From: Bacteroidota bacterium
GTDB taxonomy: Bacteria; Bacteroidota; Bacteroidia; 2-12-FULL-35-15
NCBI GenBank assembly: GCA_025963715.1
Contig: JAOQAG010000048.1
Coordinates: forward strand, 69,553 to 133,552
Direction of reading: 5' to 3'
Length of the DNA: 64,000 bases
This document shows positions 5,904-26,004 of this stretch, piece after piece. Numbering within the stretch: position 1 is the stretch's first letter; every line of letters starts with the position of its first letter. Below the pieces are notes generated by a model. The model was not told the origin of the DNA. It did no database searches and was given only the letters and a program-made list of their open reading frames with translations. Made by a program: the position numbers and the translations under genes.

Positions 5904-8900
5904 ATGAAACAGCTCATTATAAACAGAACATCCGCCGTCATTTTTTTTCTGCTTTATTTCGTTTTCAGCGCAAATTCGCAAACGCTGATCATGAACGAGG
6001 TTTCCAACGGTCCGGCCGGAAACCAGGAATACGTGGAGTTTGTGGTGGTAAGCAATACGGTTGCGTATGATTGCGGCAGCACCACGCCTCCCTGCATCGA
6101 TATCCGCGGGTGGATCTTTGATGATAACAGCGGTTATCACGGTTCTAGCGGCGTTGCAACAGGTGCTGTGCGCTTTTCTCAAAATTCGTTATGGTCCTGC
6201 GTGCCGGTAGGTACCATTATTTTGATCTATAATAACGGCGATCGCAATCCTGCTATTCCTGCGGATGATCTTTCGTTGAGCGATGGAAATTGCCGAATCA
6301 TAGCACCGCTGAACAGTACGTTGTTTGAATCAAATTCGGTAACGCCCGGAGCAAGCGCCTGCTCGTATCCTGTTTCGGGATGGACATCCGGCGGAAGCTG
6401 GAACAATACACTTTTAGCAAATGCCGGTGATTGTGCACGCATTGTAAATCTTGCCGGATGCGAAGTTTTTTCTGTTTGCTGGTCGAGTGATAATTCCAAC
6501 AACCTGATCTATTTTTCGGGATCGGCAGCGCAGAAAGTATATTATTTTAACGGCGGAAATCCCACGGTGCAATCCAACTGGAGCTCCGGAAGCGCAAATC
6601 CTTCACCGGGGCTGCAAACTCCCGGCGCTCCTAACAATGCAGCCAATGCATCGTACATTGCGCAGTTCAATAATAATTGTGTTCCTATCACACCACTCAA
6701 TGTAACTGCCACATTTGTAAATGCAGGCTGCACCTGTAACGGATCGGCTACAGCAGTTTCCAGCGGCTCCATTGGTGGATATACGTATGTTTGGTACAAT
6801 GCTTCCTATAACCCGATCGGGCAAACCACGGCAACCGCAACAGGGCTTTGTGCAGGAACGTATCACGTGATCGGGCGTTCGTCCATCGGTTGTACCGATA
6901 CGGCAAGTGTTACAGTAACATCCACATCCACTACCAGTGTTACCGCCAGTTCTGCAATCGTTTGCCAGGGACAAAATGCTTCGCTTACCGCTACACCATC
7001 GGCAACCGGCGGAACTTATTCCTGGGTACCGGGCGGACAAAACACGCAAACTATTTCTGTAAGCCCTGCATCTACCACTACCTATACAGTAACATATACG
7101 TTGGCCGGATGCAGCAGTACTGCAACAGCAACAGTTACTGTAAGTCCCTTGCCTGTGATTACACTTAATTCAGATACCATTTGTGCAGGACAATCGGCAA
7201 TGCTAACAGCAGCAGGTGCAACAACATACGCGTGGAACACGGGCGCAACTGTAAATCCATTCACTGTTTCTCCTTTATCTACTACCACCTACACGGTAAC
7301 AGGCACTACTGCCGGATGCTCTGCTACGGCTGCCGCTATGGTTACAGTAAACCCGGTTCCGGTGATCATTGTAAACTCTACCACTATTTGTCCGGGTGCC
7401 ATTGCTTCGTTAAGCGCAAGCGGCGGCGCAGCTTATACATGGTCGGCGGGCGCAACGGCAACCGGTGTAAATACAGCAACTGCTTCGCCGGTATCCACCA
7501 GTACGTATACCGTTACCGGAACAGCTGCGGGTTGTTTTTCAACAGCTGTAGCAACAGTTACTGTAAATCCGGCTACAATTATTACTGTAAATTCCCCTGC
7601 TCTTTGTAGCGGGCAAACAGCAAATTTATCGGCCAGCGGTGCCGATTCTTATACCTGGAGTGCAGGCCCAACGCCAACCGGTGCAGGCACTGCAGATGTT
7701 TCCCCGGCAACCACCACATCTTATACCGTTACCGGAACAGCGGCGGGATGCAGCGGAACAGCGGTTGCAACAGTTACTGTAAATCCATTGCCTGTTATTA
7801 CAATTAATCCGGATACAATTTGTGCAGGGGAGTCGGGAACGCTAACAGCAGCAGGTGCTGCAACGTATGTATGGAATACAGGAGCAATAACAAATCCATT
7901 AACGGTATCTCCATCAGTTACCACTACTTATACTGTAACAGGTACAACGGCGGGCTGTTCGGCTACAGCAGCAGGAACGGTTACGGTTAATACAGCTCCG
8001 GTGGTTATCGTAAATTCTACAACTATTTGCCCGGGAAGCACTGCTACGCTTACCGCTGCCGGTGCAACAACCTATGTATGGTCGACGGGTGCTAATACAA
8101 GCACAATAACGGCTGCACCGCTTTTTGATACAATATATACGGTTACGGGGACAACAGCGGGTTGTTCCAATACTGCTGTTTCAACAGTAATGATCCATGC
8201 AGTGCTGCCTGTAAATGCAGGCGCGGATGATTCGGTTTGTTTTGCTGGAAATACAATGCTGGCAGCCAGTCCGGATGTTGCCGGTTTTTCTTACAGCTGG
8301 TCGCCGGTTACGGGTTTAAGCAATGCCGGTGTGTATGATCCAACTGCAACACCACCGGCAACGACCACTTATGTTGTAACAGTTATTGATACAAACGGTT
8401 GCAGTACAAATGATAGTGTTATCATTTATGCTGATCCGCAATTATCAATTGCATTGAGCAGTACACCGGTTTTGTGCAATGGTAGTACTAACGGGCAGGC
8501 GAATGTTATTGCTTCGGGCGGATCGGGTATTTATTCATACACATGGAGTAGTGGAGATGCAACTGCTACTATTAACCAGGGCGCCGGAACGTATGCTGTT
8601 GTTGTTACCGATTCATGGGGATGTACCGGCACTGACAGTACAATTATTACCGAACCGACTGCTTTAGCGGCAAGCGCAACAGCTGTAAATGTTACTTGTG
8701 CAGGCGCCTGTAACGGAACAGCGACGGCAGCTGCAACAGGTGGTACAACCGGCGCAAGCGGTTATTCCTATTTGTGGAATACAAGCCCGGCACAAACAAC
8801 GGCAACAGCAACAGCACTTTGCGCGGGAACATATACCTGCATGGTAAAAGATCTGAACAATTGTTCTGTTACTACAATTGCCACGATCACTGAGCCGGAG

Positions 8901-11182: not shown

Positions 11183-12631
11183 ATGGGAAATAACACTACC
11201 AAACCGTCATCCTTAATTGTCCTGATCTCTGTTTTCTTTTTCTGGGGATTTGTTGCCGCCAGCAATGATATTCTGATCCCGGTTTTTAAAGAAAAATTAA
11301 ACCTCGAGCAATGGCAATCGCAGATGATCTCTTTTGCATTTTATGTGGCATACACTGTTGGTTCCATTATTTATTATATTATTTCCAAATCGTCGGGGCG
11401 CGATATTTTAAACCGGATCGGTTATAAGAACGGTATTGCGCTAGGTTTGGTCATCTCTGCCTGCGGCACGTTGCTGTTTATTCCCGCCGCAAATACAGCT
11501 TCATTTCCATTGATGATCTCCGGTTTATTTATTGTCGGCCTGGGTTTTTCCTTACAGCAAACCGCCGCCAATCCATTGGCCATTGTTATGGGCGATCCGC
11601 GCAAAGGGTCACAACGATTGAGCCTTGCAGGTGGCGTGAATAATTTCGGGACCACCATCGGGCCGCTGCTGGTAAGTTTTGCGATCTTCGGATCGGTTGC
11701 TGTTGGCGGCGCATCCAGTACATTAAGCATCGAAAATATAAAAATCCCGTATTTAATTTTAGGCGCTGCATTTCTGATCGTTGCCGTAATTTTTAAATTT
11801 TCTTCTATCCCTGATAAAATTGAATCGATCAATGATGATGAGCAACCGGAGCTGGGTTTAACCGAACGAAAAAGCGCGTTGAAATATCCGCAGCTGGTAT
11901 TGGGAATGATCGCAATTTTTGTATACGTGGGTGTGGAAGTTTCAACGGCAAGTAACCTTCCCGAATTTATGAAACAACATTTACACATTCCAACAGATAA
12001 GATCGCACCGTTTGTTTCCTTGTTCTGGGCAAGCCTTATGATCGGCCGCTGGACATCCTCGGTTGGCGCTTTTGATCTGAAAGCCGGAACAAAAGCAGTG
12101 CTAAAATTCCTGATGCCTTACATTGCATTCGCTGTATTTTTAGGCGTAAATAAAATTGCCAATCACGACCTTACTCCTTTTTATATTTATGTGTTTGTGA
12201 TCGTTGCATTAATTGCCGGTGATATGCTGAGCAAAGGAAACCCGGCGCGCCAGCTGCTTATTTATTCATTTTTCGGGATCACCGCGCTGATCATTGGCAT
12301 GCTGGCCGACGGAATGGTAAGTGTATATGCATTTATCAGCGTTGGTTTATTTTGCAGCACGTTGTGGCCCTGCATCTTTACGCTTGCCATTGCAGGATTG
12401 GGAAAACATACCAACGAAGGTTCCGGTTTTTTAATTATGATGATCATGGGTGGCGGCTTTATCAGTTTGCTCCAGGGCATTTTGGCCGGTAACGGTTTAT
12501 TGGGGATCCAATTCAGTTACATCGTAGGTGTTGCATGTTTTGCATACCTCGCATTTTATGCATGGAAAGTAAGCGCGATATTGAGGTCGCAGGGCATCGA
12601 TTATGATTCCACAAAAGATTCCGGACATTAA
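11183..12631 (+). CDS. FucP-family sugar:H+ symporter (MFS), probable GlcNAc/hexose importer
   Basis: A 482-residue protein with about twelve membrane helices and no signal peptide. FFFWGFVAASNDILIPVFK is the characteristic first helix of the FucP/GluP/NagP branch of the major facilitator superfamily, and GLGFSLQQTAANPLA and GGVNNFGTTIGP are conserved in it. The family imports fucose, glucose/galactose or N-acetylglucosamine with protons across the inner membrane. The substrate is inferred from context: a ROK kinase follows 32 bases later, and a beta-hexosaminidase and glycosylasparaginase lie in the same run of genes, so GlcNAc (or mannose) is likely. First gene of the apparent operon. Confidence 0.85.
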   Translation: MGNNTTKPSSLIVLISVFFFWGFVAASNDILIPVFKEKLNLEQWQSQMISFAFYVAYTVGSIIYYIISKSSGRDILNRIGYKNGIALGLVISACGTLLFIPAANTASFPLMISGLFIVGLGFSLQQTAANPLAIVMGDPRKGSQRLSLAGGVNNFGTTIGPLLVSFAIFGSVAVGGASSTLSIENIKIPYLILGAAFLIVAVIFKFSSIPDKIESINDDEQPELGLTERKSALKYPQLVLGMIAIFVYVGVEVSTASNLPEFMKQHLHIPTDKIAPFVSLFWASLMIGRWTSSVGAFDLKAGTKAVLKFLMPYIAFAVFLGVNKIANHDLTPFYIYVFVIVALIAGDMLSKGNPARQLLIYSFFGITALIIGMLADGMVSVYAFISVGLFCSTLWPCIFTLAIAGLGKHTNEGSGFLIMMIMGGGFISLLQGILAGNGLLGIQFSYIVGVACFAYLAFYAWKVSAILRSQGIDYDSTKDSGH

Positions 12632-12663: not shown

Positions 12664-13617
12664 ATGAAAAAATTAGTTGCAGCAATTGATATCGGCGGCA
12701 CCAATACCGTTTTTGGTTTGGTGGATGAAACAGGAAACATCCTGTTAAAAGAAAGCATTGCCACCGAACATTTTCCTATTCCGGAAGACCTGGTTGCGGT
12801 GGTTTCTGAACACATAAAAAAAGCATTTAAAGATTTTGCATCTGAATATGAGCTGATCGGCGCAGGGATCGGGGCACCGAACGGCAATTACTTTAACGGC
12901 AACATTGAGTTTGCACCCAATTTAAAATGGCAGGGAATGATCCCGATCGCTGATTTATTTTCGGAGCACCTGCATGTAAAAGCGGTATTGACAAACGATG
13001 CAAATGCCGCTGCGATTGGCGAAATGGTATTCGGTGGTGCAAAAGGCCTGAAAGATTTTTTATTTATTACGCTTGGAACAGGCCTTGGCAGCGGAATTGT
13101 TGTGAACGGCGAAATGGTTTACGGCCATGATGGTTTTGCCGGTGAGATCGGGCACGTGATCGTTTACCCGGATGGACGCCAATGCGGCTGCGGCCGGAAA
13201 GGCTGCCTAGAAACGTATTGCTCGGCAACAGGTATCAAACGTACTTACTCCGATCTGTTAATGAGCCATCACGATAAAGCCAATTTACAGGCACGCGTGG
13301 CCGATGCAAAATACATTTATGATAAAGCCATTGCCGGTGATAAGGATGCTATTGAAGCATTCAATCAAACCGGCGATGTATTAGGATTGGCGCTGGCAAA
13401 CAGCGTTGCATATACAAGTCCGCAGGTAATTTTTTTATTCGGAGGATTAGCGCTCGCAGGCGATTTTATTTTTAAACCGACGATTGAAAGCTTCGAGCGG
13501 AATTTACTGAACATCTACAAAAATAAAATAAAGATCCTGCCTTCCTTATTGAAAGAAAACGATGCAGCACTGCTGGGTGCGGCCTCTTTAATATTAAAAG
13601 AACTGACTAAAGCATGA
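12664..13617 (+). CDS. ROK-family sugar kinase
   Basis: A 317-residue cytoplasmic kinase. It has the phosphate-binding DIGGTNTVFGLVD (about 9-21), GAGIGAPNG, LTNDANAAAIGE with the catalytic Asp, LGTGLGSGIVVNG, the sugar-binding GEIGH, and the zinc motif CGCGRKGCLE. The family phosphorylates glucose, N-acetylglucosamine, N-acetylmannosamine or mannose with ATP. With the upstream transporter it would trap the imported sugar; GlcNAc is favoured by the neighbours. Its stop overlaps the start of the next gene by ATGA (13614-13617), indicating translational coupling to the cytochrome gene. Confidence 0.88.
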   Translation: MKKLVAAIDIGGTNTVFGLVDETGNILLKESIATEHFPIPEDLVAVVSEHIKKAFKDFASEYELIGAGIGAPNGNYFNGNIEFAPNLKWQGMIPIADLFSEHLHVKAVLTNDANAAAIGEMVFGGAKGLKDFLFITLGTGLGSGIVVNGEMVYGHDGFAGEIGHVIVYPDGRQCGCGRKGCLETYCSATGIKRTYSDLLMSHHDKANLQARVADAKYIYDKAIAGDKDAIEAFNQTGDVLGLALANSVAYTSPQVIFLFGGLALAGDFIFKPTIESFERNLLNIYKNKIKILPSLLKENDAALLGAASLILKELTKA

Positions 13618-14693
13618 GTAACAACGATCACAAAAATACAGAAGAGCGTTTGCTGAATGTGATCGGCAAGTTGTTGAATGTGATCGCTTGTTTGATGCTT
13701 TTTGTTGCCGCACTGGTGTATGTATGCTTTTGCGGTGTTCCCGAAATTTTTATCCCTAAAAAAGAAGTTGTTTACACGCCGCCGGCTCCTGATAAAAAAA
13801 GTGAACAAGCGGCTGTTGTTTCTACGCTCTGGATCGCTCCGGATACCGCAACCATTCCGAAAGATGAAAAAGGAAAACAGATCCGTTACGGTCGTATGCT
13901 CATTTCAAATACCGCGTATTATTTTGGCCCGCATGGAATTATTCAGCACAGCAGCAACGGCATGAATTGTCAGAATTGCCATTTGGATGCCGGAACAAAA
14001 GCATTCGGGAATAACTACAGCGCCGTAGCTTCCACGTATCCAAAATTTCGTGAACGTTCCGGCATGACCGAAAGCATTTACAAACGCGTGAACGATTGTT
14101 TTGAGCGCAGCCTGAACGGTGCAGCACTGGATTCATCCGGGAAGGAAATGCAGGCTATAAAAGCATACATTATCTGGCTGGGACAAAATGTGAAAAAAGG
14201 CGAAAAGCCAATGGGCTCAGGAATCACAGAGCTTGCTTATTTACAGCGCGCTGCAGATCCGGAAAAAGGAAAAACCGTGTACACCCAAAAATGTATGTCG
14301 TGCCATGGAACAAATGGCGACGGAAAATTAAACACAGATCAGCTTACCTATCAATATCCGCCGCTTTGGGGCGCTCACAGTTATAATTACGGCGCAGGAT
14401 TATTCCGTTTATCACGATTTGCGGGATATGTAAAATCCAACATGCCGCTGGGCGTTACCTATGATAATCCGCAGCTAACGGATGAGCAGGCTTGGGATGT
14501 GGCGGCGTATGTGAATTCACAACTGCGCCCAACGAAAGATCTGAGTAAAGACTGGCCTAAAATTTCGGGTAAACCGGTTGATCATCCCTTTGGGCCGTAT
14601 GCGGATGGCTTTACTGAAAAGCAGCATAAATACGGGCCATTTGCACCAATCGCGGAAGCGAAGAAGAAACAAAAAGATAAAAAAAGTAAATGA
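13614..14693 (+). CDS. tsdA: Di-haem cytochrome c, thiosulfate dehydrogenase (TsdA) family
   Basis: A 359-residue protein with an N-terminal membrane segment (about 18-41) and two haem c motifs, CQNCH (119-123) and CMSCH (227-231). NCHLDAGTKAFG, NDCFERSLNG (Cys162 in the position of the unusual axial cysteine of TsdA haem 1), GRMLI, SNMPLG (Met277, likely haem 2 ligand) and the C-terminal KPVDHPFGPYADGF..QHKYGPF are all features of thiosulfate dehydrogenase. TsdA enzymes interconvert thiosulfate and tetrathionate in the periplasm. The frame overlaps the ROK kinase stop (ATGA), and a SoxB-like gene follows ten bases downstream, which supports a sulfur role. The physiological direction and electron partner cannot be read from sequence. 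Confidence 0.83.
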   Translation: MSNNDHKNTEERLLNVIGKLLNVIACLMLFVAALVYVCFCGVPEIFIPKKEVVYTPPAPDKKSEQAAVVSTLWIAPDTATIPKDEKGKQIRYGRMLISNTAYYFGPHGIIQHSSNGMNCQNCHLDAGTKAFGNNYSAVASTYPKFRERSGMTESIYKRVNDCFERSLNGAALDSSGKEMQAIKAYIIWLGQNVKKGEKPMGSGITELAYLQRAADPEKGKTVYTQKCMSCHGTNGDGKLNTDQLTYQYPPLWGAHSYNYGAGLFRLSRFAGYVKSNMPLGVTYDNPQLTDEQAWDVAAYVNSQLRPTKDLSKDWPKISGKPVDHPFGPYADGFTEKQHKYGPFAPIAEAKKKQKDKKSK

Positions 14694-14703
14694 AATTTAA
14701 AAT

Positions 14704-16452
14704 ATGTCCGGAGAAAATAAACATACTTATTCCTGTTCCTGTAAAAGCTGCGAACCACTTATTATTGAAAATAATGTATCGCGTAAAAACTTTTTAAGAA
14801 CATTGGGTGCTGCAACACTTGGTATGGGATTGGCCCCGGTAACCTCTTTTGCTTTGCAGGAAAAAGGAAAAGCAGAAGAGATCTTAAAAAGTAATGTTGT
14901 TAAAAATGGAAAAGTGCAGCACATTTCGTTATTGCATACCAGTGATATACATGGACAAATAAATGTGCATGACGAATTTTTTTGGGAAAACGGAAAAGCT
15001 GTTTTTAAAAAACGGGGTGGTTTTGCACATTTAAAAACAATGATCAATGAGCTGCGGAAACAAAATCCCAATACATTATTGCTGGATGGCGGCGATTGTT
15101 TCCAGGGAAGCGGGATTGCTTCTTTAACCCGGGGACAGGGACTGGTACCCTTAATGAATAATTTACAATACGACCTGGTGTTACCGGGTAACTGGGAAGT
15201 GGTATACGGAAAACAAATGCTGCTGAAAGATCTGGGCGGATACAATGCGCGTAAGGTCTGTGCAAACATGTTTGATGACGATGCAGCCGGAGATCTATTA
15301 TTTCCGCCTTATTCCGTTTTTTATATTGCCGGAATTAAAATTGGATTTATTGGTTATAATGATCCTCTAACGGCGATCCGGCAGGCGCCAGATTACAGCA
15401 AAGGAATAAAATATTGCGGGCCGGAAAAAAACATTGCAAAGTACGTGAAAATATTGCGTGAGCAGGAACAGTGCAAAATGGTATTTGTGATGTCGCACAT
15501 GGGATTAGCGCAGCAATTGAACCTGGCATCAAAGCCGTATGCGGAAGGTGTTGATTATATTTTGGGTGCAGATACACATGAACGGATCCGAGAACCATTA
15601 CAAGGAAAATATGCAAAAGTAACAGAGCCGGGGGCGTTTGCTTCCTTTGTTGGTAAGCTGGACCTGGTGATTGAAGACGGCAAAATAAAAGAAGAAAGTT
15701 ATGAATTGCTTGAAGTGGATCCCGGAAAATATGCTGCGGATGAAGAAATGAAAAATTTAATAACGCAGGTATATCAGCCGTATGAAAAAGAATTAAAGCG
15801 CGTGATCGGAAAAACAAAAAGTACGCTGATGCGCTATTATGTTCTTGAAACGCCTATGGATAACATGATCACAGATGCGCTCATGTGGAAATTCAATCCG
15901 GATATTACCATCGCTAATGGATTTAGATTTTGTCCGCCACTGGTTGCAAGCGCAGCTACCCCTGCAGATATTACCTCCGATTATTTATACAGTATGATTC
16001 CCGGCAACAATGAAACGTTAATGGCAGATGTTACTGGAAATCAAATTTTGAACTGGCTGGAAAAAGAGCTTGAAAACGTATTTTCAAAAGACCCAGAAAA
16101 ACGTTTAGGCGGATGGCTGGTTCGGTTCCAGGGAATGAAAATAAGATTTACAATTGCAAATGAAGCGGGAAAACGGATAGAAGAGATCCTTGTAAAAGGA
16201 GAAAAAATTGACCCTGAAAAAATTTATAAAGTTGTTTCATGTGAGCGTGAAGGAGACCCGGATAGTTTATTGTGCAGGATAAAAGAGGTGAAAAATAATC
16301 AGAAGCTCGGAGTTTTAATACATGATGTAATAGAAGAATACATTACAAAACATTCGCCGGTTGAACCCAAAGTTGAAGGAAGAGCAGTTGCAACAGATGC
16401 GACAGCCGATTTATTAACACAGATAGAGGGAGTAAATTATCAATTCAGATAA
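14704..16452 (+). CDS. SoxB-like metallophosphoesterase/5'-nucleotidase family protein
   Basis: A 582-residue protein with calcineurin-like metallophosphatase and 5'-nucleotidase C-terminal domains. Metal-binding marks: HTSDIHGQI (Asp81, His83), LDGGDCFQGS (Asp131), PGNWEVVYG (Asn163) and GADTHERI. The Trp-Glu after the metal Asn replaces the usual GNHE and resembles SoxB, the Mn-dependent thiosulfohydrolase. The C-terminal half has NGFRFCPPL, LVRFQGMK and CEREGDPDSLL. The N-terminus is Tat-like but has SRKNFLR (Arg-Lys) rather than Arg-Arg, preceded by a CSCKSC cluster. Start is ten bases after tsdA; the stop is two bases before the GH20 start. A role in sulfate release from a sulfur compound is an inference; plain 5'-nucleotidase/UDP-sugar hydrolase activity is the alternative. 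Confidence 0.75.
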   Translation: MSGENKHTYSCSCKSCEPLIIENNVSRKNFLRTLGAATLGMGLAPVTSFALQEKGKAEEILKSNVVKNGKVQHISLLHTSDIHGQINVHDEFFWENGKAVFKKRGGFAHLKTMINELRKQNPNTLLLDGGDCFQGSGIASLTRGQGLVPLMNNLQYDLVLPGNWEVVYGKQMLLKDLGGYNARKVCANMFDDDAAGDLLFPPYSVFYIAGIKIGFIGYNDPLTAIRQAPDYSKGIKYCGPEKNIAKYVKILREQEQCKMVFVMSHMGLAQQLNLASKPYAEGVDYILGADTHERIREPLQGKYAKVTEPGAFASFVGKLDLVIEDGKIKEESYELLEVDPGKYAADEEMKNLITQVYQPYEKELKRVIGKTKSTLMRYYVLETPMDNMITDALMWKFNPDITIANGFRFCPPLVASAATPADITSDYLYSMIPGNNETLMADVTGNQILNWLEKELENVFSKDPEKRLGGWLVRFQGMKIRFTIANEAGKRIEEILVKGEKIDPEKIYKVVSCEREGDPDSLLCRIKEVKNNQKLGVLIHDVIEEYITKHSPVEPKVEGRAVATDATADLLTQIEGVNYQFR

Positions 16453-16453
16453 C

Positions 16454-18061
16454 ATGAAAAAAACAGCATTCATTCTTTTAGTTTTTATTGCACAATTTTC
16501 TGTTGCGCAGGAAAATGTAGTATACCCGATCATTCCGCAGCCTAATTATTTGCAGGCAACGGGCGGTACTTTTGCATTGTCGGATACTACTACAATTGTG
16601 GCGAATGAAAATTCATTTGAAGCGCAATACTTAAAAAGTTATTTGGAAAAAAATTACGATCTGCATGTGAAAATTGATTCACATTATCCACCCTTTAAAA
16701 ATTTTATCCTGCTGCTCAATGCCATTGAAAACAATGCCACGCAGCTCGATCAGGAATCGTATCAATTAAAGGTCACCAAAAAAGGAGTAACGATCACTGC
16801 GGTTGGAAGCGCCGGATTGTTTTACGGTATCGAAAGCCTGATCCAGTTATTGCCGGTAGAAAAAAGTAAAAATTTGAATGTTGCCTGCTTGCAGATCTCC
16901 GATTGGCCGCGCTATACCTGGCGGGGAATGCATCTGGATTGCAGCCGCCATTTTTTTACAAAAGACGAAGTGAAAAAATACATCGATTATTTAGCGATGT
17001 ATAAATTCAATACATTTCACTGGCATTTAACCGACGATCAGGGTTGGCGCATCGAGATCAAACAATATCCTTTGCTTACTTCGGTAGGCGGACAACGCAA
17101 CCAAACGCTGATCGGGAAACCATCTAAAAACGATAAATATGACGGTAAAGCGTACGGCGGATTTTACACACAGGAAGATGTAAAAGAAATTGTAGCGTAT
17201 GCCACCGAGCGCCACATTACTATTGTGCCGGAAATAGAAATGCCGGGGCATTCATTAGCCGCGCTTGCCGGTTATCCGCAATATTCGTGTACAGGCGGAC
17301 CGTTTAAAACCTATACCACCTGGGGCGTTTCCGACGATGTGTATTGTGCCGGAAATGATAGCACCTATACATTTATTGAAAATATTTTGACAGAAGTATT
17401 CGACCTGTTCCCGGGAAAATACGTTCACATTGGCGGAGATGAATGTCCGAAAGAACGCTGGAAAGAGTGTCCGAAATGTAAAAAAAGAATGGCGGATGAA
17501 CACCTGAAAGATGAAAACGAATTGCAAAGTTATTTTGTAACGCGGATCGAAAAATTTGTGAATTCGAAAGGAAAACAAATTGTGGGCTGGGACGAAATTT
17601 TAGACGGCGGACTTGCTCCGAATGCTACCGTAATGAGCTGGCGCGGAACACAGGGCGGAATTGCCGCTGCAAAACAAAACCATTATGTGGTGATGACACC
17701 GGGCAAGCCTTGTTATTTTGATCATTATCAATCCAAAGCAAAAGACAGGGAACCGCTGGCGATTGGTGGATTCAATCCGCTGGATTCGGTTTATAATTAT
17801 GATCCAACGCCTAAATCATTATCGGTAACCGAACAACAATATATTTTGGGCGCGCAGGGAAATGTGTGGACGGAATACATTACTGATTTTTCAAAAGTGG
17901 AATATATGTCGCTGCCCCGTATGTGCGCTTTATCCGAAGTGGTATGGACGAAACCCGAAAATAAAAATTACAGCAATTTTATTGCACGTTTAAAAATGAA
18001 TTCGAAAATACTCGATCGCATGAATGCGAATTATGCGAAATTATTCACGCTTCAAAAATAA
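16454..18061 (+). CDS. GH20 beta-N-acetylhexosaminidase
   Basis: A 535-residue secreted exo-enzyme. Signal peptide 1-19 (ending VAQ), a GH20b-type N-terminal alpha/beta domain (about 22-145), then a TIM barrel. Conserved GH20 segments are WRGMHLDCSRHFF (156-168), HWHLTDDQGWRIEIK (189-203), PEIEMPGH (259-266) and HIGGDE with the catalytic Asp329-Glu330 pair used in substrate-assisted hydrolysis. It removes terminal beta-linked GlcNAc (or GalNAc) in the periplasm or at the surface. In this operon it would cut the chitobiose core or antennary GlcNAc of N-glycans. Five bases separate it from the glycosylasparaginase gene. Confidence 0.93.
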   Translation: MKKTAFILLVFIAQFSVAQENVVYPIIPQPNYLQATGGTFALSDTTTIVANENSFEAQYLKSYLEKNYDLHVKIDSHYPPFKNFILLLNAIENNATQLDQESYQLKVTKKGVTITAVGSAGLFYGIESLIQLLPVEKSKNLNVACLQISDWPRYTWRGMHLDCSRHFFTKDEVKKYIDYLAMYKFNTFHWHLTDDQGWRIEIKQYPLLTSVGGQRNQTLIGKPSKNDKYDGKAYGGFYTQEDVKEIVAYATERHITIVPEIEMPGHSLAALAGYPQYSCTGGPFKTYTTWGVSDDVYCAGNDSTYTFIENILTEVFDLFPGKYVHIGGDECPKERWKECPKCKKRMADEHLKDENELQSYFVTRIEKFVNSKGKQIVGWDEILDGGLAPNATVMSWRGTQGGIAAAKQNHYVVMTPGKPCYFDHYQSKAKDREPLAIGGFNPLDSVYNYDPTPKSLSVTEQQYILGAQGNVWTEYITDFSKVEYMSLPRMCALSEVVWTKPENKNYSNFIARLKMNSKILDRMNANYAKLFTLQK

Positions 18062-18065
18062 GGAA

Positions 18066-19064
18066 ATGACGAGCAGAAGAAATTTTATCAAAACATCGGC
18101 ATTGGCTTCCGCGGCTTTGCTGACAAATGTTTCGGAAAGCAAAGCTTCCGCAAATAAAAAAGAAAGCAGTAGTGCAATCACAAAGCCCATTGTGCTTTCC
18201 ACCTGGAATTTCGGATTAAAAGCCAACGATGCTGCATGGGAAGTTTTAAAAACAAACGGACGCGCACTGGATGCCGTGGAGGCGGGTGTGAAAATTCCGG
18301 AAGGCGATCCAACCGAGCGTAGTGTGGGGTATGGCGGTCGTCCCGATCGGGATGGACGCGTAACGCTGGATGCCTGCATCATGGATGAATTTGCAAACAT
18401 TGGTTCGGTGGCGTGTTTGGAATTTATCAAACATCCCATTTCTGTTGCGCGTGCTGTGATGGAAAAAACGCCGCACGTAATGCTGGTGGCCGATGGCGCT
18501 TTGCAGTTTGCCTTGTCGCAGGGATTTGTAAAAGAAAATTTACTGGTGGAGGAATCCGAAAAAGAATGGAAAGAATGGCTGAAAACCAGCAATTACAAAC
18601 CCATTGCGAATATTGAAAATCACGATACTATTGGCATGATCGCGCTGGACGCTGCCGGAAACCTTTCCGGAGCATGTACTACCAGCGGCATGGCATTTAA
18701 AATGCACGGCCGTGTGGGCGATTCGCCGATCATTGGTGCGGGTTTGTATGTGGACAATGAAATTGGCGCTGCAACAGCAACAGGGCACGGAGAAGAAGTG
18801 ATCCGGATTGCAGGTTGCCATTTGGTAGTGGAACTGATGCGCCAGGGAAAATCGCCGCAGGATGCTTGTGTAGAGGCGGTGAACCGTGTAGTGAAATTAA
18901 TAAGCCTGCGTAAAAAAGAATTAAAAGACATCCAGGTTGGATTTATTGCATTGAATAAAAACGGCGAATACGGCGCCTATTGTGTGCAAAGCGGATTTAA
19001 TTATGCGGTGCATGATGCCACAGGAAACCGTTTGATCGATTCGGATTTTCATTTGAAAATGTAA
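18066..19064 (+). CDS. N4-(beta-N-acetylglucosaminyl)-L-asparaginase (glycosylasparaginase)
   Basis: A 332-residue Ntn-hydrolase precursor that cleaves the GlcNAc-Asn bond of degraded N-glycoproteins. The start MTSRRNFIKTSALASAALL is a canonical twin-arginine signal. PIVLSTWNFG, DDPTER-like DPTERSVGYGGRPDRDGRVT and the autocleavage site NHDTIGMIALDA are present; Thr188 is the expected nucleophile exposed by self-cleavage. GACTTSGMAFKMHGRVGDSP and GAATATGHGEE are substrate-pocket segments. From memory it closely resembles the secreted Elizabethkingia (Flavobacterium) meningoseptica enzyme. The frame is open from 18024, but the Tat signal fixes the start at 18066, five bases after the GH20 stop. 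Last gene of the tight run. Confidence 0.93.
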   Translation: MTSRRNFIKTSALASAALLTNVSESKASANKKESSSAITKPIVLSTWNFGLKANDAAWEVLKTNGRALDAVEAGVKIPEGDPTERSVGYGGRPDRDGRVTLDACIMDEFANIGSVACLEFIKHPISVARAVMEKTPHVMLVADGALQFALSQGFVKENLLVEESEKEWKEWLKTSNYKPIANIENHDTIGMIALDAAGNLSGACTTSGMAFKMHGRVGDSPIIGAGLYVDNEIGAATATGHGEEVIRIAGCHLVVELMRQGKSPQDACVEAVNRVVKLISLRKKELKDIQVGFIALNKNGEYGAYCVQSGFNYAVHDATGNRLIDSDFHLKM

Positions 19065-19353: not shown

Positions 19354-20022
19354 ATGAAAAAATTAGAGATCGCTTGTTTTAATCCGGAATCCGCCATCAT
19401 CGCGCAAAATGGCGGTGCCGACAGGGTTGAGCTCTGCGCGGATCAGTTAACAGGCGGGATCACGCCGCCGTACGAAATTGTTATACAAACACGCAAAAGC
19501 TTAACGATCGATATTGTGGTAATGATCCGGCCGCGTGGCGGAAATTTTGTGTATACCGGTGCTGAATTCGAACAAATGAAAACAGATATTGCTGCATTAA
19601 AAAATACCGGCATCAATGGTTTTGTATTTGGAATTTTAACAGCGGATAATCAAATTAATAAATCACAAAATACCGAATTGGTGGAATTGGCAAAACCATT
19701 TTCCTGTACATTTCACCGTGCATTTGACGTTGCTGCAGATATAGAAGCAGCATTGGAAGCTGTAATTGAATGCGGATTCAAAACCATTTTAACATCCGGA
19801 CAAAAAAACAGCGGGCCGGAAGGAATAAATGAACTGGAAAAAATAATCAAACTGGCAAATAATAGAATTGTGATCATGCCGGGCGGTGGCGTTCGCTCTT
19901 CCAACGTTGCGGAATTAAAAAACAAATTGAACACTTCGTATTTTCATTCTTCTGCAATCACCGATCAAAGCGGGATTGCGAATTTACAGGAAGTAAAACT
20001 GCTTAAAGAAAAACTGAATTGA
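19354..20022 (+). CDS. cutC: CutC family TIM-barrel protein
   Basis: A 222-residue cytoplasmic protein. LEIACFNPESAIIAQNGGADRVELCADQLTGGITPP (about 3-38) is the PF03932 signature, and MIRPRGGNFVY, TFHRAFDVAADIEAAL, ILTSGQK and MPGGGVRSSNVAEL match CutC barrels. The family was named for copper homeostasis, but its biochemical role is poorly supported. Here the stop overlaps the start of a beta-mannosidase (TTGA, 20019-20022), so the two are translationally coupled, and the locus otherwise degrades N-glycans. That context suggests a sugar- or glycoamino-acid-related role rather than copper handling; this is inference. Confidence 0.85.
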   Translation: MKKLEIACFNPESAIIAQNGGADRVELCADQLTGGITPPYEIVIQTRKSLTIDIVVMIRPRGGNFVYTGAEFEQMKTDIAALKNTGINGFVFGILTADNQINKSQNTELVELAKPFSCTFHRAFDVAADIEAALEAVIECGFKTILTSGQKNSGPEGINELEKIIKLANNRIVIMPGGGVRSSNVAELKNKLNTSYFHSSAITDQSGIANLQEVKLLKEKLN

Positions 20023-22586
20023 TAAAACGGGTACTCAAATATTTTTTTGTTTTATACCTGCTGTCAATTACGCTGCATGCACAGGTTGTGGAAAAAAATC
20101 TGGATGACAGTCATTGGAAATTCAAGCAAAAAACAGAACACAAATGGCGGAGTGCAGCAGTTCCGGGCACCGTTCACACCGACCTGTTAAAACATAAATT
20201 AATTCCCGATCCGTATATTGCCGACAATGAAAAATTGGTGCAATGGGTGGAAAACGAAGACTGGGAATACAAAACCACATTCACACTTTCGGAAACGGAA
20301 ATGCAGCAATCACACATTGAACTACAGTTCGATGGTTTGGATACGTACGCCAGTGTGTATGTGAACGATTCGCTGGTGATCACTGCCGATAATATGTTCC
20401 GTACCTGGAATACAGATGTGAGAAAATATGTGCACAAAGGAAAAAACGAAGTGTACATTTTATTTGAATCCGCCGTAAAAAAAGGAAAAGCAGAAGCTGC
20501 AAAATTAAATTATACACTGCCCGGCGATGAAAAAGTATTTACGCGTAAAGCGCAATATCAGTACGGTTGGGACTGGGGACCGCGTTTGGTTACCTGTGGG
20601 ATCTGGAAAGATGTAAAGCTTATTTTCTGGAACGATGCAAAAATGCTGAATGTGCAATATGTGCAGCAATCATTGAGCGATACGCTTGCGGAGCTGGAAT
20701 TTATCTGCACCATTAAAAGCGATGTGGACGCAAACGCTTACATGGATATTTCGTATGGCGGATTCATGAGCGATATGCTGAGCGGAGAAATTAACTCGAA
20801 GATCAAATTAAAAAAAGGCATCAATACCTATCCGCTGTATTATTCGGTGAAAGACCCACAACGCTGGTGGTGCAATGGTTTGGGCTTTCCAACAATGTAT
20901 CATTTCCTGATCACACTTTCGTACGATTCGCGTTTTCTCGATACAGAAAATATTGCCATAGGCTTGCGCACGCTGGAATTGGTGCAGGAAAAAGACAGTG
21001 TCGGCGCTTCCTTTTATTTTAAATTAAATGGCGTGCCCGTGTTTATGAAAGGTGCCAATTACATTCCGCCCGATAATTTTTTACCGCGCGTTGATCACAA
21101 TGGGATGCGCAGTGTAGTTGAAAATGCAGTAAATGCAAACATGAACATGCTGCGCGTTTGGGGCGGTGGCGCTTACGCAGATGATGAGTTTTACAATCAA
21201 TGCGACTATCACGGAATTTTAATCTGGCAGGATTTTATGTTCGCTTGCGCGATGTACCCGGGAGATGAAAAATTCATTCAGAATGTAAATGCAGAAATTA
21301 CCCAACAGGTGCAGCGTTTGCGCAATCACCCCAGCCTTGCATTGTGGTGCGGAAACAATGAAATAGATGAAGGCTGGCACAACTGGGGTTGGCAAAAACA
21401 ATACAAGTATTCAGATAGTGATTCCACAAAAATTGCAAGTGATTACAACAAATTATTTCGACAGGAAATCCCTGCTCTTATAAAACAAAATGATCCCACG
21501 CGTTTTTATTGGGAATCTTCTCCTTCTATCGGCTGGGGGCACAACCAAAGCCTGCAGCAGGGCGATTCGCATTACTGGGGCGTGTGGTGGGGCAACGAAC
21601 CGTTTGAGATTTATAATCAAAAAGTGGGAAGGTTTATGAGCGAATACGGCTTTGAAGGAATGCCGGATTACAGTACTTTTAAGAAGATCGCGGATAAAAA
21701 AGAATTGAATTTTAATTCCGCTGCGGTAAAAAACCATCAGAAGCATCCAACCGGTTATCAAACGATCCAAAGCTATATGGAACGCGATTATAAAATTCCC
21801 GCTGATTTTGAAAAATACATTTATGTATCACAACTCCTGCAGGCGCAAGGAATCAAAACCGCCATTGAAGCACATCGCAGGGCAAAGCCGTATTGCATGG
21901 GAACACTATTCTGGCAGCTGAACGATTGCTGGCCGGTAACTTCCTGGAGCAGCGTGGATTATTACAATCATTGGAAAGCGCTGCAATACCAGGCAAAACG
22001 AAGCTATGCACCGCTTATTGTTTCGGTCACGGAAGCAAATAAAAATTGTGAAGTGTATATCGTGAACGATGAACGGGATACGCTCAGCAGGCGATTGTTG
22101 GTGCAGCTGCTGGATTTTAACGGAAATGCGATCTGGAGCAAAGTGCTGGATGTAGTGATCCCACCCAATAGCAGCGGAATGTATTATTCCGTTAATAAAA
22201 ATGATTTCGGGGATTTTGATGCGAAACAAACGGTGCTTTCTGCTTCTTTGCTGGTTCCGAAAGCATTTGACAATTCGAACGTGATCCATTTTACCGAAGA
22301 ATCAACGGCGATGTTTTATTTTGTAAAGCCCAAAGACCTGCAGTTGCCGAAACCGGTATTCAGGATCGATGCAACCACCACTGACAACGATCAGTACCTG
22401 GTAATCAGTACCGATGTTTTTGCAAAAGATGCCTGTATTACAATCGATGGAGAATCCTTAAATTTGAGTGATAATTTTTTTGACCTGATGCCCGGGCAGC
22501 AAAAAGTGATTTATCTGCCGAGAGGTAAAAAAATTCGTTCGCTTAAAAAGAAAACACACATTGCATCATTAGTTGATGCGTATTAA
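20019..22586 (+). CDS. GH2 beta-mannosidase
   Basis: An 855-residue secreted glycosidase starting at TTG 20019 inside the cutC stop; no ATG precedes the signal peptide (IKRVLKYFFVLYLLSITLHAQ). Domain order is the GH2 sugar-binding jelly roll (about 30-200; WEYKTTFTL, FDGLDTYASVYVND), an Ig-like domain, then the TIM barrel. Diagnostic: RVWGGGAYADDEFY, the acid/base in WCGNNEIDE (Glu448) and the nucleophile in MSEYGFEGMP (Glu542), with the FWQLNDCWPVTSWSSVDY segment of beta-mannosidases. It cleaves Man-beta-1,4-GlcNAc, the linkage in the N-glycan core (also mannan oligosaccharides). Its location with GH92, GH20 and glycosylasparaginase favours the N-glycan substrate. Confidence 0.92.
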   Translation: MIKRVLKYFFVLYLLSITLHAQVVEKNLDDSHWKFKQKTEHKWRSAAVPGTVHTDLLKHKLIPDPYIADNEKLVQWVENEDWEYKTTFTLSETEMQQSHIELQFDGLDTYASVYVNDSLVITADNMFRTWNTDVRKYVHKGKNEVYILFESAVKKGKAEAAKLNYTLPGDEKVFTRKAQYQYGWDWGPRLVTCGIWKDVKLIFWNDAKMLNVQYVQQSLSDTLAELEFICTIKSDVDANAYMDISYGGFMSDMLSGEINSKIKLKKGINTYPLYYSVKDPQRWWCNGLGFPTMYHFLITLSYDSRFLDTENIAIGLRTLELVQEKDSVGASFYFKLNGVPVFMKGANYIPPDNFLPRVDHNGMRSVVENAVNANMNMLRVWGGGAYADDEFYNQCDYHGILIWQDFMFACAMYPGDEKFIQNVNAEITQQVQRLRNHPSLALWCGNNEIDEGWHNWGWQKQYKYSDSDSTKIASDYNKLFRQEIPALIKQNDPTRFYWESSPSIGWGHNQSLQQGDSHYWGVWWGNEPFEIYNQKVGRFMSEYGFEGMPDYSTFKKIADKKELNFNSAAVKNHQKHPTGYQTIQSYMERDYKIPADFEKYIYVSQLLQAQGIKTAIEAHRRAKPYCMGTLFWQLNDCWPVTSWSSVDYYNHWKALQYQAKRSYAPLIVSVTEANKNCEVYIVNDERDTLSRRLLVQLLDFNGNAIWSKVLDVVIPPNSSGMYYSVNKNDFGDFDAKQTVLSASLLVPKAFDNSNVIHFTEESTAMFYFVKPKDLQLPKPVFRIDATTTDNDQYLVISTDVFAKDACITIDGESLNLSDNFFDLMPGQQKVIYLPRGKKIRSLKKKTHIASLVDAY

Positions 22587-23037
22587 TTTGCTTACATTTT
22601 TTGAATGCTGTGTATGGGAACGCAGATCAAAAATGATTTTTAGGATGTAAAAAAGATCGCCTGTGGCGCTTATGATTGAAAATTATAATTTGATTGGTTG
22701 CAGATCTATCAAAGAGGTATTAATAATGATATAGCGCTCTATTTTTGGGCTTCGCCTTTTTGAGCTTGTCAGTAATAGCCGGTAATGAGCGTGGCTGAAA
22801 TTATATTTTCGGAGCGATAAGGTGCGTACGTGAAATTATCCGCGGTTGGTCTTCGCGCCAGCAGAAGAGCAAATTACATTACAAGATCAAAAAAGGTTTT
22901 TGTTACTTTTTGCCTTCAAAAAGTTAAAAGATAAATAATTGCGAAATTAAAAATGGTGTCTGTTGGTACAAAGTTGCCGATACTCATTTAATTTTATGCG
23001 ATGTTGCAAAATTCCGATACTCATTAAAAATAACAAT
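22587..23037. repeat. Gap with divergent copy of element I and leader of the GH92 gene
   Basis: A diverged third copy of the ~225-bp element I covers about 22755-22930: it shares TCAGTAATAG, GGTAATGAGCG, CGTGAAATTATCC-CGGTT, CGCGCCAGC, and the closing TTACTTTTTGCCTTCAAAAA hairpin. Between 22977 and 23025 the 12-mer CCGATACTCATT occurs twice, 37 bases apart. A related phrase (GTACAAAGTT..GATACTCATTTAA) occurs at 50221, so this too looks like dispersed repeat rather than an operator. No gene seen. Confidence 0.55.
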
Positions 23038-26004
23038 ATGAAAAAACATACTATATCCCTCCGCATTTTATTGTCGTTTGCATTTTGTTTAGTAAGCGCA
23101 TTCGTATCTGCACAACAAACCAATTCGCAATACGTGGATCCTATGATCGGCACCGGCGGCCACGGTCATACATTTCCCGGTGCTACCGTTCCGTTTGGGA
23201 TGGTGCAGCTTTCGCCGGATACGCGCATCGACGACAGTTGGGATGGCTGCAGCGGTTACCATTACAGCGATACCGTGATCTACGGTTTTTCACATACACA
23301 TTTAAGCGGCACCGGCTGCAGCGATTACGGCGATATTAATTTAATGCCAACGGTTGGGAACATCAGCGTTGACAGCTCAAAATATGCTTCCGGATTTTCG
23401 CACAAGAATGAAAAAGCCAGTGCCGGATATTATTCCGTAAAGCTGAAAAATAAAGTGAATGTGGAATTAACAGCTACTACACGCGTTGGTTTTCATAAAT
23501 ATACTTTTCCGAAAACCACGCAGGCAAATATTATTCTTGATCTCACGCATCGTGATAAAACGCTGGAATCGACGTTGGCAATTGTAAGCGCTACCGAAGT
23601 GGAAGGTATGCGCAGAAGTGAAGCCTGGGCGCAGGATCAACACATTTATTTTGTGATCCAGTTTTCAAAACCATTCGTGGAAACTATTTTTATAAATAAT
23701 GTAAAGCAGGACAGGTTTGTCTACGCTTGCAATTTTGAACCACTTCATATTGATTCCTCAACAAACATCAAAGCCGCATTTACATTTAAAACAGCTGCAA
23801 ACGAAGCGGTGTACATGAAAGTCGGGATTTCGACAGTAAGCATTGAAGGTGCGCGCAATAACCTGAAAGCGGAATTGCCGGGTTGGGATTTTGAAAAAAC
23901 AAAGCTGGAAGCGCGGCTTGCATGGGACAAAGAATTGAGCAAGATCCAGATCACCACCGATAATAAAGATCAGCTGAAAACATTTTACACGGCTTTGTAT
24001 CACACCATGATCCAGCCGAATGTGAACATGGATGTGGACGGCATGTACCGTGGCCGCGATAATCAAATTCATCATGCGGACGGATTTACGTATTATTCCG
24101 TGTTCTCGCTCTGGGATACATTCCGCGCTGCGCATCCGCTGTACACGATCATAGACCGGACACGCACACTGGATTTTGTGAAAACATTTTTAGCACAATT
24201 CAAAGATGGCGGGCGGTTACCGGTATGGGAGCTCGCCAGTAACGAAACCGATTGCATGATCGGTTACCATTCCGTGAGCGTGATCGCGGATGCTGCTGTA
24301 AAAGGAATTCATGATTTTGATTTGAATTTAGCATTGGAAGCAATGAAAAAATCGGCTACCTGGGATCATCTTGGTTTACCTGCTTACATGGATCATGGCT
24401 GCATTACAATGGATGATGAACACGAAAGCGTTTCCAAAACAGTGGAATATTCTTACGATGACTGGTGCATTGCACAGGTGGCGAAAATGCTGGACAAACA
24501 AGCGGATTACGACACGTACATGAAACGTTCGCAATACTGGAAAAATGTATTTGATCCCGGAACTGGTTTTATGCGTCCGAAAAAAAATGGGAATTGGTTA
24601 ACGCCGTTTGAGCCGCGTGAGGTCAATAATAATTTCACAGAAGGAAATTCCTGGCAATACACCTTTTTTGTGCCGCAGGATCTCGATGGTTTGATCCGCA
24701 GAATGGGTGGCCCCGAAAATTTTGAGAAAAAACTGGACGAGCTTTTTACCACTACCACAAAAACAACCGGTCGCGAACAGGCGGATATTACCGGCTTGAT
24801 CGGCCAGTATGCACAAGGCAACGAACCAAGCCATCACATGGCATACTTGTATGATTTTGTTGGTAAATCCTGGAAAACAGAAGAACGCATTCACCAGATC
24901 TGCACACAGTTTTATAAAGCAGCACCGGATGGTTTGATCGGTAATGAAGATTGCGGACAAATGAGCGCCTGGTTTGTATTGAGTTCATTGGGTATTTATG
25001 AAGTAACGCCGGGTTCGGGCAATTATGTTTTCGGGACACCGTTGTTTAAAGAAGCAAAAATTAATTTGGAGAATGGAAATTCACTCGCGATCAAAACAAT
25101 TAATTTTTCTGCCACTAATTTTTATGTGGATCGCATCAAATACAATGATGCCTTGTTGAACCCGCGTGTTATAAAATACGATAACATCATGAATGGCGGT
25201 ACGCTGGAATTCAGCATGAGCGCGGTGCCTACCAAACAATCTGAATACGACATCACACCGTTGTACGATGTAAACGAAAAACAAATCGTGGTAAACCCTA
25301 TTATTGCAGCTGATTCCCGCGTTTTCAAAAACGCGCTGACGGTTAATTTAAAAGCGGATCATACGAATGATAATATTTATTACACACGCGATGGCTCGGA
25401 TCCTACAATTAATTCCATTTTGTATACTGCTGCATTTACTATTGATACCACCACCACGGTAAAAGCAATCGAAGTAAGTATTGAAGGCGATAAAAGTTTT
25501 ATTACAAGCGGTACATTTTATAAAATGCCGCATCCCGACTGGAAAATAAAGATCAATGCAAAATACAATGCACAATATACTGCCGGTGGTGATGAAGGCC
25601 TGATCGATGGAATGCACGGTACCGAAAACTGGCGCAAAGGCGATTGGCAAGGCTATCAGTCACAGGATTTTGAAGCAGTGATCGACCTCGGAAAAGAGCA
25701 AAAAATAAATGCGGTTTCATCTACCTATTTGCAGGATAGCCGCGCCTGGATCTTGTTTCCAACAAAAGTGGAATATTCGTTTTCCAACGATGGAATCACA
25801 TACAGCAGCCCTGTAACTGTTATCAACAGTGCCGATCCAAAGGATAACAAAGTACAGGTAAAACAATTTCAGCAGGGGATTTCACAAAATGTAACAGCGC
25901 GTTATGTAAAAGTAAAAGCCATTAATTTCGGAAAGTTGCCGGAATGGCACCAGGGAGCAGGCGGTGATGCGTTTATTTTTGTGGATGAGGTAGAGGTTTA
26001 TTAG
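23038..26004 (+). CDS. GH92 alpha-mannosidase with chitobiase-like and F5/8-type C-terminal domains
   Basis: 988 residues with a signal peptide (about 1-27, ending VSAQ). YVDPMIGTGGHGHTFPGATVPFGMVQLSPDT is the GH92 N-terminal hallmark. The catalytic barrel includes DTFRAAHPLYT, LPVWELASNETDCMIGYHS, EGNSWQYTFFVPQD, GNEPSHH and GNEDCGQMSAWFVLSSLG. GH92 enzymes are Ca-dependent, inverting exo-alpha-mannosidases acting on high-mannose N-glycans. After about residue 760 comes a chitobiase/Fn3-like strand module (YYTRDGSDPT), then a C-terminal discoidin/CBM32-like domain (FEAVIDLGKEQKINAVSSTY). The frame is open from 22963; the signal peptide sets ATG 23038. No T9SS sorting domain, so periplasmic or surface by another route. 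Confidence 0.92.
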   Translation: MKKHTISLRILLSFAFCLVSAFVSAQQTNSQYVDPMIGTGGHGHTFPGATVPFGMVQLSPDTRIDDSWDGCSGYHYSDTVIYGFSHTHLSGTGCSDYGDINLMPTVGNISVDSSKYASGFSHKNEKASAGYYSVKLKNKVNVELTATTRVGFHKYTFPKTTQANIILDLTHRDKTLESTLAIVSATEVEGMRRSEAWAQDQHIYFVIQFSKPFVETIFINNVKQDRFVYACNFEPLHIDSSTNIKAAFTFKTAANEAVYMKVGISTVSIEGARNNLKAELPGWDFEKTKLEARLAWDKELSKIQITTDNKDQLKTFYTALYHTMIQPNVNMDVDGMYRGRDNQIHHADGFTYYSVFSLWDTFRAAHPLYTIIDRTRTLDFVKTFLAQFKDGGRLPVWELASNETDCMIGYHSVSVIADAAVKGIHDFDLNLALEAMKKSATWDHLGLPAYMDHGCITMDDEHESVSKTVEYSYDDWCIAQVAKMLDKQADYDTYMKRSQYWKNVFDPGTGFMRPKKNGNWLTPFEPREVNNNFTEGNSWQYTFFVPQDLDGLIRRMGGPENFEKKLDELFTTTTKTTGREQADITGLIGQYAQGNEPSHHMAYLYDFVGKSWKTEERIHQICTQFYKAAPDGLIGNEDCGQMSAWFVLSSLGIYEVTPGSGNYVFGTPLFKEAKINLENGNSLAIKTINFSATNFYVDRIKYNDALLNPRVIKYDNIMNGGTLEFSMSAVPTKQSEYDITPLYDVNEKQIVVNPIIAADSRVFKNALTVNLKADHTNDNIYYTRDGSDPTINSILYTAAFTIDTTTTVKAIEVSIEGDKSFITSGTFYKMPHPDWKIKINAKYNAQYTAGGDEGLIDGMHGTENWRKGDWQGYQSQDFEAVIDLGKEQKINAVSSTYLQDSRAWILFPTKVEYSFSNDGITYSSPVTVINSADPKDNKVQVKQFQQGISQNVTARYVKVKAINFGKLPEWHQGAGGDAFIFVDEVEVY

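Follow-up and report, generated by a model that had tools for sequence, protein, structure and literature searches.

The stretch of DNA analyzed here (the window) comprises 64,000 nucleotides from a Bacteroidota bacterium (contig JAOQAG010000048.1, positions 69,553 to 133,552) and contains, within an operon for glycan breakdown, two adjacent genes that encode a TsdA-type di-haem cytochrome and a SoxB-like di-metal hydrolase. Our analysis suggests, with a probability of about 0.6, that this pair is a periplasmic thiosulfate-oxidizing unit that would operate without SoxYZ, supply extra electrons and be co-expressed with glycoprotein feeding. The pairing of these enzymes, and the kinds of enzymes involved, are already known, the SoxB-like subfamily being a variant; the unusual aspect is not the pair itself but its location in an N-glycan operon. 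Relatives from several families share this arrangement, which is thus a genuine genomic association of long standing.

A sulfur gene pair inside an N-glycan operon

All genes of the operon lie on the plus strand, in the order MFS transporter, ROK kinase, TsdA-type cytochrome, SoxB-like hydrolase, GH20, glycosylasparaginase, CutC, GH2 and GH92 (Table 1). The original prediction, made from the letters of this DNA, placed the pair in an N-acetylglucosamine (GlcNAc) operon. The pair is truly embedded, but the operon looks like one for N-glycan catabolism of glycoproteins, rather than for catabolism of plain or free GlcNAc, because it combines a glycosylasparaginase with GH92, GH2 and GH20 enzymes; exo-mannosidases, GH20 and glycosylasparaginase also occur together in other families. 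GH92, GH2 enzymes of the mannosidase type, GH20 and glycosylasparaginase are gene families typical of glycoprotein N-glycan use. Bacteroidota N-glycan operons of this kind (GH92-GH2-GH20-glycosylasparaginase) resemble the window operon in gene content and order, but are normally devoid of sulfur genes. As first described, the stop codon of the kinase gene shares an ATGA (13614-13617) with the start of tsdA, and ten bases separate tsdA from the ATG of the SoxB-like gene (14704); the gap between the SoxB-like gene and GH20, given as two bases, is actually one (stop at 16452, start at 16454).

The TsdA-type cytochrome

The cytochrome had been called TsdA-like from its CQNCH and CMSCH motifs and the cysteine of NDCFERS, and this identity is borne out: its alignment with Allochromatium vinosum TsdA (4wqc, E = 1.9e-43) spans all three motifs (C119-H123, C227-H231 and C162) and, judged by its residues, it is a TsdA-type di-haem thiosulfate dehydrogenase in which all haem and substrate residues are kept. 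Both CxxCH motifs, with their proximal histidines, are conserved among relatives (83 of 83 and 82 of 83). In the same alignment, the equivalents of A. vinosum His53, Arg82, Arg92, Cys96 and Met209 occur in 83/83 sequences, that of His164 in 82/83 and that of Ser100 in 80/83. The corresponding substrate and ligand residues of the window protein are C162 (the distal ligand of haem 1, Cys96 type), R148 (Arg82), R158 (Arg92) and S166 (Ser100), and the distal methionine of haem 2 is M277, again found in 83/83. Thus, the di-haem fold, the His/Cys ligation of haem 1, the R82, R92 and S100 equivalents and the methionine at haem 2 are as in the TsdA enzymes of A. vinosum and Campylobacter jejuni. Compared with the A. 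vinosum enzyme, the window protein adds a conserved carboxy-terminal tail past the end of the alignment and, near its amino terminus, a hydrophobic segment at approximately residues 24-42 in the hydropathy profile that suggests a membrane anchor. No second TsdA was found in the window's genome, the sole haem match having an E-value of 0.2.

The two characterized enzymes differ at the position before the haem 2 methionine, where A. vinosum TsdA has Lys208; the window protein (Asn276) and 78/83 relatives have asparagine, as in C. jejuni TsdA. In the latter, methionine is the haem 2 ligand and the enzyme acts in vivo as a tetrathionate reductase (PMC5146829, PMC6879331). The Asn276-Met277 pair therefore raises the alternative of tetrathionate respiration, in which TsdA would serve as a reductase and electron sink at low oxygen while the SoxB-like protein only trims polythionates. 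We consider this improbable, since the asparagine is also present in TsdAs that are clustered with a persulfide dioxygenase, a hydrolase that consumes tetrathionate would compete with the reductase, and the window's genome encodes a haem-copper oxidase.

A divergent type of TsdA (42-45% identity, on a long branch) was also observed in three rows from two genomes (L166, L167 and L168; G012 and G014). The glycan operon displays no sulfur genes in either genome, being intact in G014 and on a short contig in G012.

A SoxB-like subfamily with altered metal ligands

The best sequence match of the hydrolase is Thermus SoxB (2wdc, E = 1.6e-28), and its AlphaFold2 model (mean predicted local distance difference test score, pLDDT, 84.8) has SoxB as its best fold match (2wdc, E = 2.2e-38, TM approximately 0.8). 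Trp164 occupies the position of the catalytic histidine of 5'-nucleotidases, as in SoxB, in 85/85 relatives. In the SoxB-SoxYZ disulfide-trapped structure 4uwq this position reads cysteine in the aligned sequence, which suggests a position at the substrate site for the SoxB-family tryptophan. The window hydrolase also has in common with canonical SoxB (Thermus 2wdc; Ruegeria, L181) most metal-ligand positions and the equivalent of Arg408, the ligand roles being assigned by alignment with known enzymes. The description of the enzyme as SoxB-like is thus apt as far as its closest match is concerned, but it is not a canonical SoxB. Asn163 stands where SoxB and most SoxB-like proteins of Proteobacteria have histidine (N-W-E versus H-W-E) and Asp290 replaces the first histidine of the HxH motif of SoxB and 5'-nucleotidases (D-T-H versus H-T-H), both in 85/85 relatives, whereas Ruegeria SoxB has HWE and HTH. 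The hydrolase lacks the loop of approximately 44 residues that follows the first metal motif in SoxB, and on TIGR04486, the curated SoxB equivalog model, it scores 293 bits where the cut-off is 550 (843 for Ruegeria SoxB). Because of these motifs, the missing loop and the low score, the hydrolase is best described, from its sequence, as a member of a SoxB-like NWE/DTH subfamily. Canonical SoxB, in addition, works with SoxYZ, which the window's genome appears to lack (see below). A CxCxxC motif ahead of the Tat-like signal was considered and dropped, as it is present in only 11/85 relatives.

The original prediction had reserved the case in which the hydrolase acts solely as a 5'-nucleotidase. 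A periplasmic 5'-nucleotidase or other phosphoesterase, leaving TsdA as the sole sulfur enzyme, would agree with the NCBI label of the homologues ('bifunctional metallophosphatase/5'-nucleotidase') and with Asn163, which is a 5'-nucleotidase ligand. We regard it as very improbable: the catalytic histidine of the N-H-E motif is replaced by tryptophan in 85/85 sequences, SoxB is the best match in both sequence and fold, and the gene is paired with TsdA in 50 of 51 loci (see below). A plain 5'-nucleotidase identity was accordingly rejected on the missing histidine.

SoxB-like proteins of Proteobacteria and Hymenobacter (L178-L180) occur in sulfur clusters with MBL, TauE and mostly YeeE/DUF6691. 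Two of them (L178 and L179) score 300-337 bits on the SoxB hidden Markov model, a range like that of the window hydrolase, but all three keep HW[E/D] and HTH. Homologues with 48-49% identity were also seen on three contigs labelled Actinomycetota (L097, L107 and L110), with no TsdA nearby; L097 and L110 have the NWE and DTH motifs.

The pair is the core of a widespread sulfur cassette

A genome scan for SoxB-like genes yielded 80 loci, nearly all in Bacteroidota, of which 51 have an intact SoxB-like frame and at least 3.5 kb of sequence on both sides. In 50 of these 51 a TsdA gene lies within 4 kb of the SoxB-like gene, and in 40 a YeeE/DUF6691 gene lies within 5 kb. This conservation of TsdA with the SoxB-like gene is far beyond chance. 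The usual neighbours of the pair in Bacteroidota are a persulfide dioxygenase with rhodanese, TauE, DsrE, YeeE/DUF6691, OprD, a Crp-type regulator and SQR, and the same sulfur clusters are also found on plasmids of Runella and Hymenobacter. The pair is therefore common in Bacteroidota and normally resides in dedicated sulfur clusters, as it does in Daejeonella oryzae DSM 19973 and Lacibacter cauensis.

SoxY (PF13501) and SoxZ (PF08770) were not found in the window's genome or in the related genomes tested, whereas the control, a Ruegeria sox plasmid, was detected with E-values of 4e-33 and 2.5e-31. A SoxYZ-free pathway through TsdA and SoxB has been published for Erythrobacter flavus, where strains deleted for either tsdA or soxB no longer turn thiosulfate into sulfur and tetrathionate builds up in the soxB mutant; its authors list Bacteroidetes among the holders of both genes (PMC7608252). 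The same route has been invoked in field work (PMC12345210). The window's genome has the corresponding content, namely tsdA, a soxB-like gene and a persulfide dioxygenase with no soxYZ found, as in the TsdA-SoxB-SdoA/B system of E. flavus 21-3 (PMC7608252). The likeness is one of gene content, and in strain 21-3 the genes form a separate sulfur cluster, whereas in the window the pair lies inside the N-glycan operon. Although the pair had been singled out as the arrangement least explained by known systems, it is thus central to a sulfur-oxidation cassette that is widespread in Bacteroidota and has a published SoxYZ-free counterpart (PMC7608252).

The cassette in N-glycan operons of the genus

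The order rok-tsdA-(yeeE-yeeE)-soxB-GH20 recurs in many relatives; the gene order of the window, for which a neighbourhood check had been proposed, is thus conserved in other Bacteroidota and not unique to this genome. Within the genus, the operon exists in several states. A full TsdA-YeeE-YeeE-SoxB cassette lies between the kinase and GH20 genes in four genomes (G003, G011, G017 and G035), and in a fifth (G029) the same cassette precedes GH20 on a contig that starts inside the kinase gene. TsdA and SoxB without YeeE are found in the window, G010 and G019; TsdA and YeeE genes without SoxB in G026; and the YeeE pair by itself in G006. Nine genomes (G004, G005, G007, G014, G015, G024, G027, G033 and G034) have the same operon without sulfur genes, and G033 carries the pair at a separate place outside it. 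In the cassette-free operons of the genus, the kinase and GH20 genes are 1-233 bases apart. Partial remnants of the cassette were found at two loci (L147 and L163).

Sulfur-bearing glycan operons also occur outside the genus, at seven loci (L032, L037, L038, L041, L043, L090 and L106) that were found through SoxB and so form a biased set. In an operon tree these seven fall outside the genus, and the sulfur-free state within it needs several changes. A set of 59 glycosylasparaginase loci, chosen independently of any sulfur genes, contains four, from three families, with sulfur genes inside the glycan operon (L210, L211, L212 and L225); a further locus (L218) has only a divergent dioxygenase nearby. 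A sulfur-free operon as the ancestral state of the genus was considered and dropped, as the remnants and the sulfur-bearing operons of other families fit loss better. On the evidence of the operon tree and the partial remnants, the data fit an old insertion of the cassette between kinase and GH20, followed by repeated loss.

L210, which belongs to the family of G055, has Crp, TauE, a persulfide dioxygenase and a YeeE pair between GH20 and glycosylasparaginase. This different position in the operon, together with the grouping of its YeeE with ordinary sulfur clusters in a tree, suggests an independent association of sulfur and glycan genes. The glycan-linked SoxB proteins, on the other hand, all fall in one supported clade of the SoxB tree, which also holds four rows with short contigs or no glycan neighbours and one that is clearly non-glycan (L173).

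The ratio of non-synonymous to synonymous substitution rates (dN/dS) is 0.03-0.13 for every computable gene pair, a range of which only the low level is informative since many dS values approach or exceed saturation; it shows that the TsdA and SoxB-like genes are kept by purifying selection. Of particular interest is the comparison of L100 and L159 (G035 and G003), which are 92% identical in TsdA and 96% in YeeE (flanks 91-96%) but only 68% in SoxB. Since their SoxB proteins also fall in different sub-clades of the SoxB tree, SoxB was exchanged in place within the cassette. Separate losses of YeeE apparently occurred in the window and in L031/L056, since L169, a branch-mate of L031/L056, retains the gene. 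Read most simply, this means that it pays to keep the hydrolase function at this locus, while import is dispensable.

These observations bear on whether the location has any metabolic meaning. The cassette may carry out ordinary thiosulfate oxidation and owe its place to an insertion accident that gives adequate expression. This account concerns placement only and is compatible with the mechanism proposed below; we regard it as a serious rival, of a likelihood somewhat short of even. It would explain why many members of the genus use the same operon with kinase and GH20 adjoining, why the pair elsewhere sits in dedicated sulfur clusters, and why remnants at L147 and L163 show decay. It accounts less well for a position that is kept across lineages whose TsdA and SoxB are only approximately 60% identical, for the replacement of SoxB by that of another lineage with the locus unchanged, for L210, where another family has other sulfur genes at a different position of the same operon, and for the three families among the 59 unbiased loci in addition to the window's genus.

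The original prediction had also considered that the glycan substrate carries sulfur or that the pair has been repurposed. The former is unsupported: Pfam annotation of the operon genes revealed no sulfatase, cysteine/methionine or sulfonate gene, and many close relatives run the operon without sulfur genes. A repurposed pair would act on organic thiosulfonates or S-sulfonates, such as S-sulfocysteine, released in glycoprotein breakdown rather than on inorganic thiosulfate. The two altered metal-ligand positions and missing loop of the subfamily, the apparently independent losses of the YeeE importer and the location in a glycoprotein operon all point in this direction, but members of this subfamily also occur next to YeeE and persulfide dioxygenase in ordinary thiosulfate clusters, all thiosulfate residues of TsdA are kept and no cysteine or sulfonate gene accompanies the pair, so that repurposing is unlikely.

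No reports of sulfur genes in N-glycan or polysaccharide operons were found in the literature searched, where the lodging of this SoxB-like subfamily in N-glycan operons of several families appears to be undescribed.

Proposed mechanism

We propose that the membrane-anchored TsdA and the exported SoxB-like hydrolase form a periplasmic thiosulfate-oxidizing unit without SoxYZ. TsdA, by its homology and residues, would convert two thiosulfates to tetrathionate and pass two electrons to the respiratory chain, which would deliver them to the haem-copper oxidase. The SoxB-like enzyme would then cleave tetrathionate, or a thiosulfonate conjugate, at its terminal sulfonate to give sulfate and sulfane sulfur, a step suggested by the Erythrobacter genetics and by fold and motifs. 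Canonical SoxB is thought to act on the SoxYZ thiosulfonate and has been shown to be active on trithionate as a small analogue (PMC5336275), which makes free polythionates plausible substrates of the SoxB-like enzyme. The sulfane sulfur would be oxidized by the persulfide dioxygenase, which is encoded beside TauE and apart from the pair. In relatives, the YeeE/DUF6691 pair would import sulfur for this dioxygenase; the window's genome keeps the dioxygenase and TauE elsewhere, without YeeE. Because it is inserted between the kinase and GH20 genes of the N-glycan operon, the unit is probably produced while the cell feeds on glycoproteins, and its most likely role is to provide a heterotroph with additional electrons. 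The unit is accessory, having been lost in many relatives.

Several points weigh against this proposal. Two metal-ligand positions and the missing loop set the SoxB relative apart from canonical SoxB, and the catalytic activity of the NWE/DTH subfamily is a prediction from homology. Haem 2 of the cytochrome is of the C. jejuni kind, whose enzyme is a tetrathionate reductase in vivo (PMC5146829), and the TsdA sequence settles the chemistry (thiosulfate/tetrathionate) better than the direction, which it does not fix. No YeeE (PF04143 transporter) scored above the cut-off in the genomes of the window, G010, G019 and G033, which leaves the scheme for the window's genome without this route for sulfane sulfur into the cytoplasm. 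Finally, the dioxygenase is not linked to the pair and, being present in nearly all genus members with or without TsdA, is not a specific marker of the pathway.

A bolder version, which we find doubtful, is a carrier-free mini Sox system in which TsdA replaces SoxAX and SoxYZ, thiosulfate bound to Cys162 or tetrathionate passed on from TsdA is cut by the NWE/DTH enzyme, and expression is coupled to the N-glycan operon, since the sulfur is supplied or signalled by the breakdown of glycoproteins.

Current counts probably underestimate sulfur oxidation by heterotrophic Bacteroidota, because the SoxB relative scores far below the curated cut-off and NCBI labels its homologues 5'-nucleotidases. If true, a conserved connection of thiosulfate oxidation with the use of N-glycans would join the breakdown of particles and glycoproteins to the sulfur cycle. 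How SoxB relatives work without a carrier protein can also be approached through the two metal-ligand positions that are invariantly changed here, in a SoxYZ-free setting.

Features of the operon and other genes in the window

The features of the operon are listed in Table 1. The listed start of the glycosylasparaginase gene overlaps GH20, and the actual start may lie further downstream. Promoter and terminator scans of the operon gave scores no better than those of shuffled sequence, and no Rfam families or tRNAs were found within the window.

Table 1. Coordinates of the operon genes and sequence motifs in the window
Feature	Position	Strand	Evidence
MFS sugar transporter (gluP/NagP/FucP type), operon gene 1	11183..12631	+	Pfam MFS_1 9.7e-18; NCBIfam gluP 1e-60, NagP 2.7e-52
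ROK-family sugar kinase	12664..13617	+	Pfam ROK 4.2e-62
TsdA-type di-haem thiosulfate dehydrogenase (predicted), N-terminal membrane anchor	13614..14693	+	4wqc E 1.9e-43; SoxA-TsdA_cyt-c and Cytochrom_C domains; conserved residues; hydropathy
Haem 1 motif CQNCH (C119-H123)	13968..13982	+	sequence and alignment of relatives
Cys162 codon, distal haem 1 ligand (A. vinosum Cys96), within NDCFERS	14097..14099	+	sequence and alignment
Haem 2 motif CMSCH (C227-H231)	14292..14306	+	sequence and alignment
SoxB-like di-metal hydrolase (predicted), NWE/DTH subfamily, Tat-like N-terminus (SRKNFLRTLG)	14704..16452	+	2wdc E 1.6e-28; TIGR04486; AlphaFold2 fold
P161-G-N-W-E165 motif	15184..15198	+	85/85 relatives and subfamily comparison
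A289-D-T-H-E293 motif	15568..15582	+	D290-T-H-E in 85/85 relatives and subfamily comparison
GH20 beta-N-acetylhexosaminidase	16454..18061	+	Pfam 6.5e-125
N4-(beta-N-acetylglucosaminyl)-asparaginase family (Asparaginase_2), Tat-like signal	18024..19064	+	Pfam 1.2e-70
CutC family protein	19354..20022	+	Pfam 1.4e-61
GH2 beta-mannosidase-like enzyme	20019..22586	+	Glyco_hydro_2_N2 8.4e-63, Mannosidase_ig 2e-13
GH92 alpha-mannosidase	22963..26004	+	Pfam 7.3e-178

In 27 of the 59 unbiased loci (L204-L263), from many families, the glycosylasparaginase gene has a CutC gene, annotated as 'copper homeostasis', at a distance of no more than 1 kb. This points to a function of CutC in the catabolism of GlcNAc-Asn and not in copper handling; no paper on CutC with glycosylasparaginase was found in the literature searched. 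Elsewhere, the window encodes a repeat protein of 1424 residues that carries PKD repeats, SprB repeats and a CHU_C signal for type IX secretion (5904-10178), and an alpha-2-macroglobulin-like protein with a TED domain (39443-43879).

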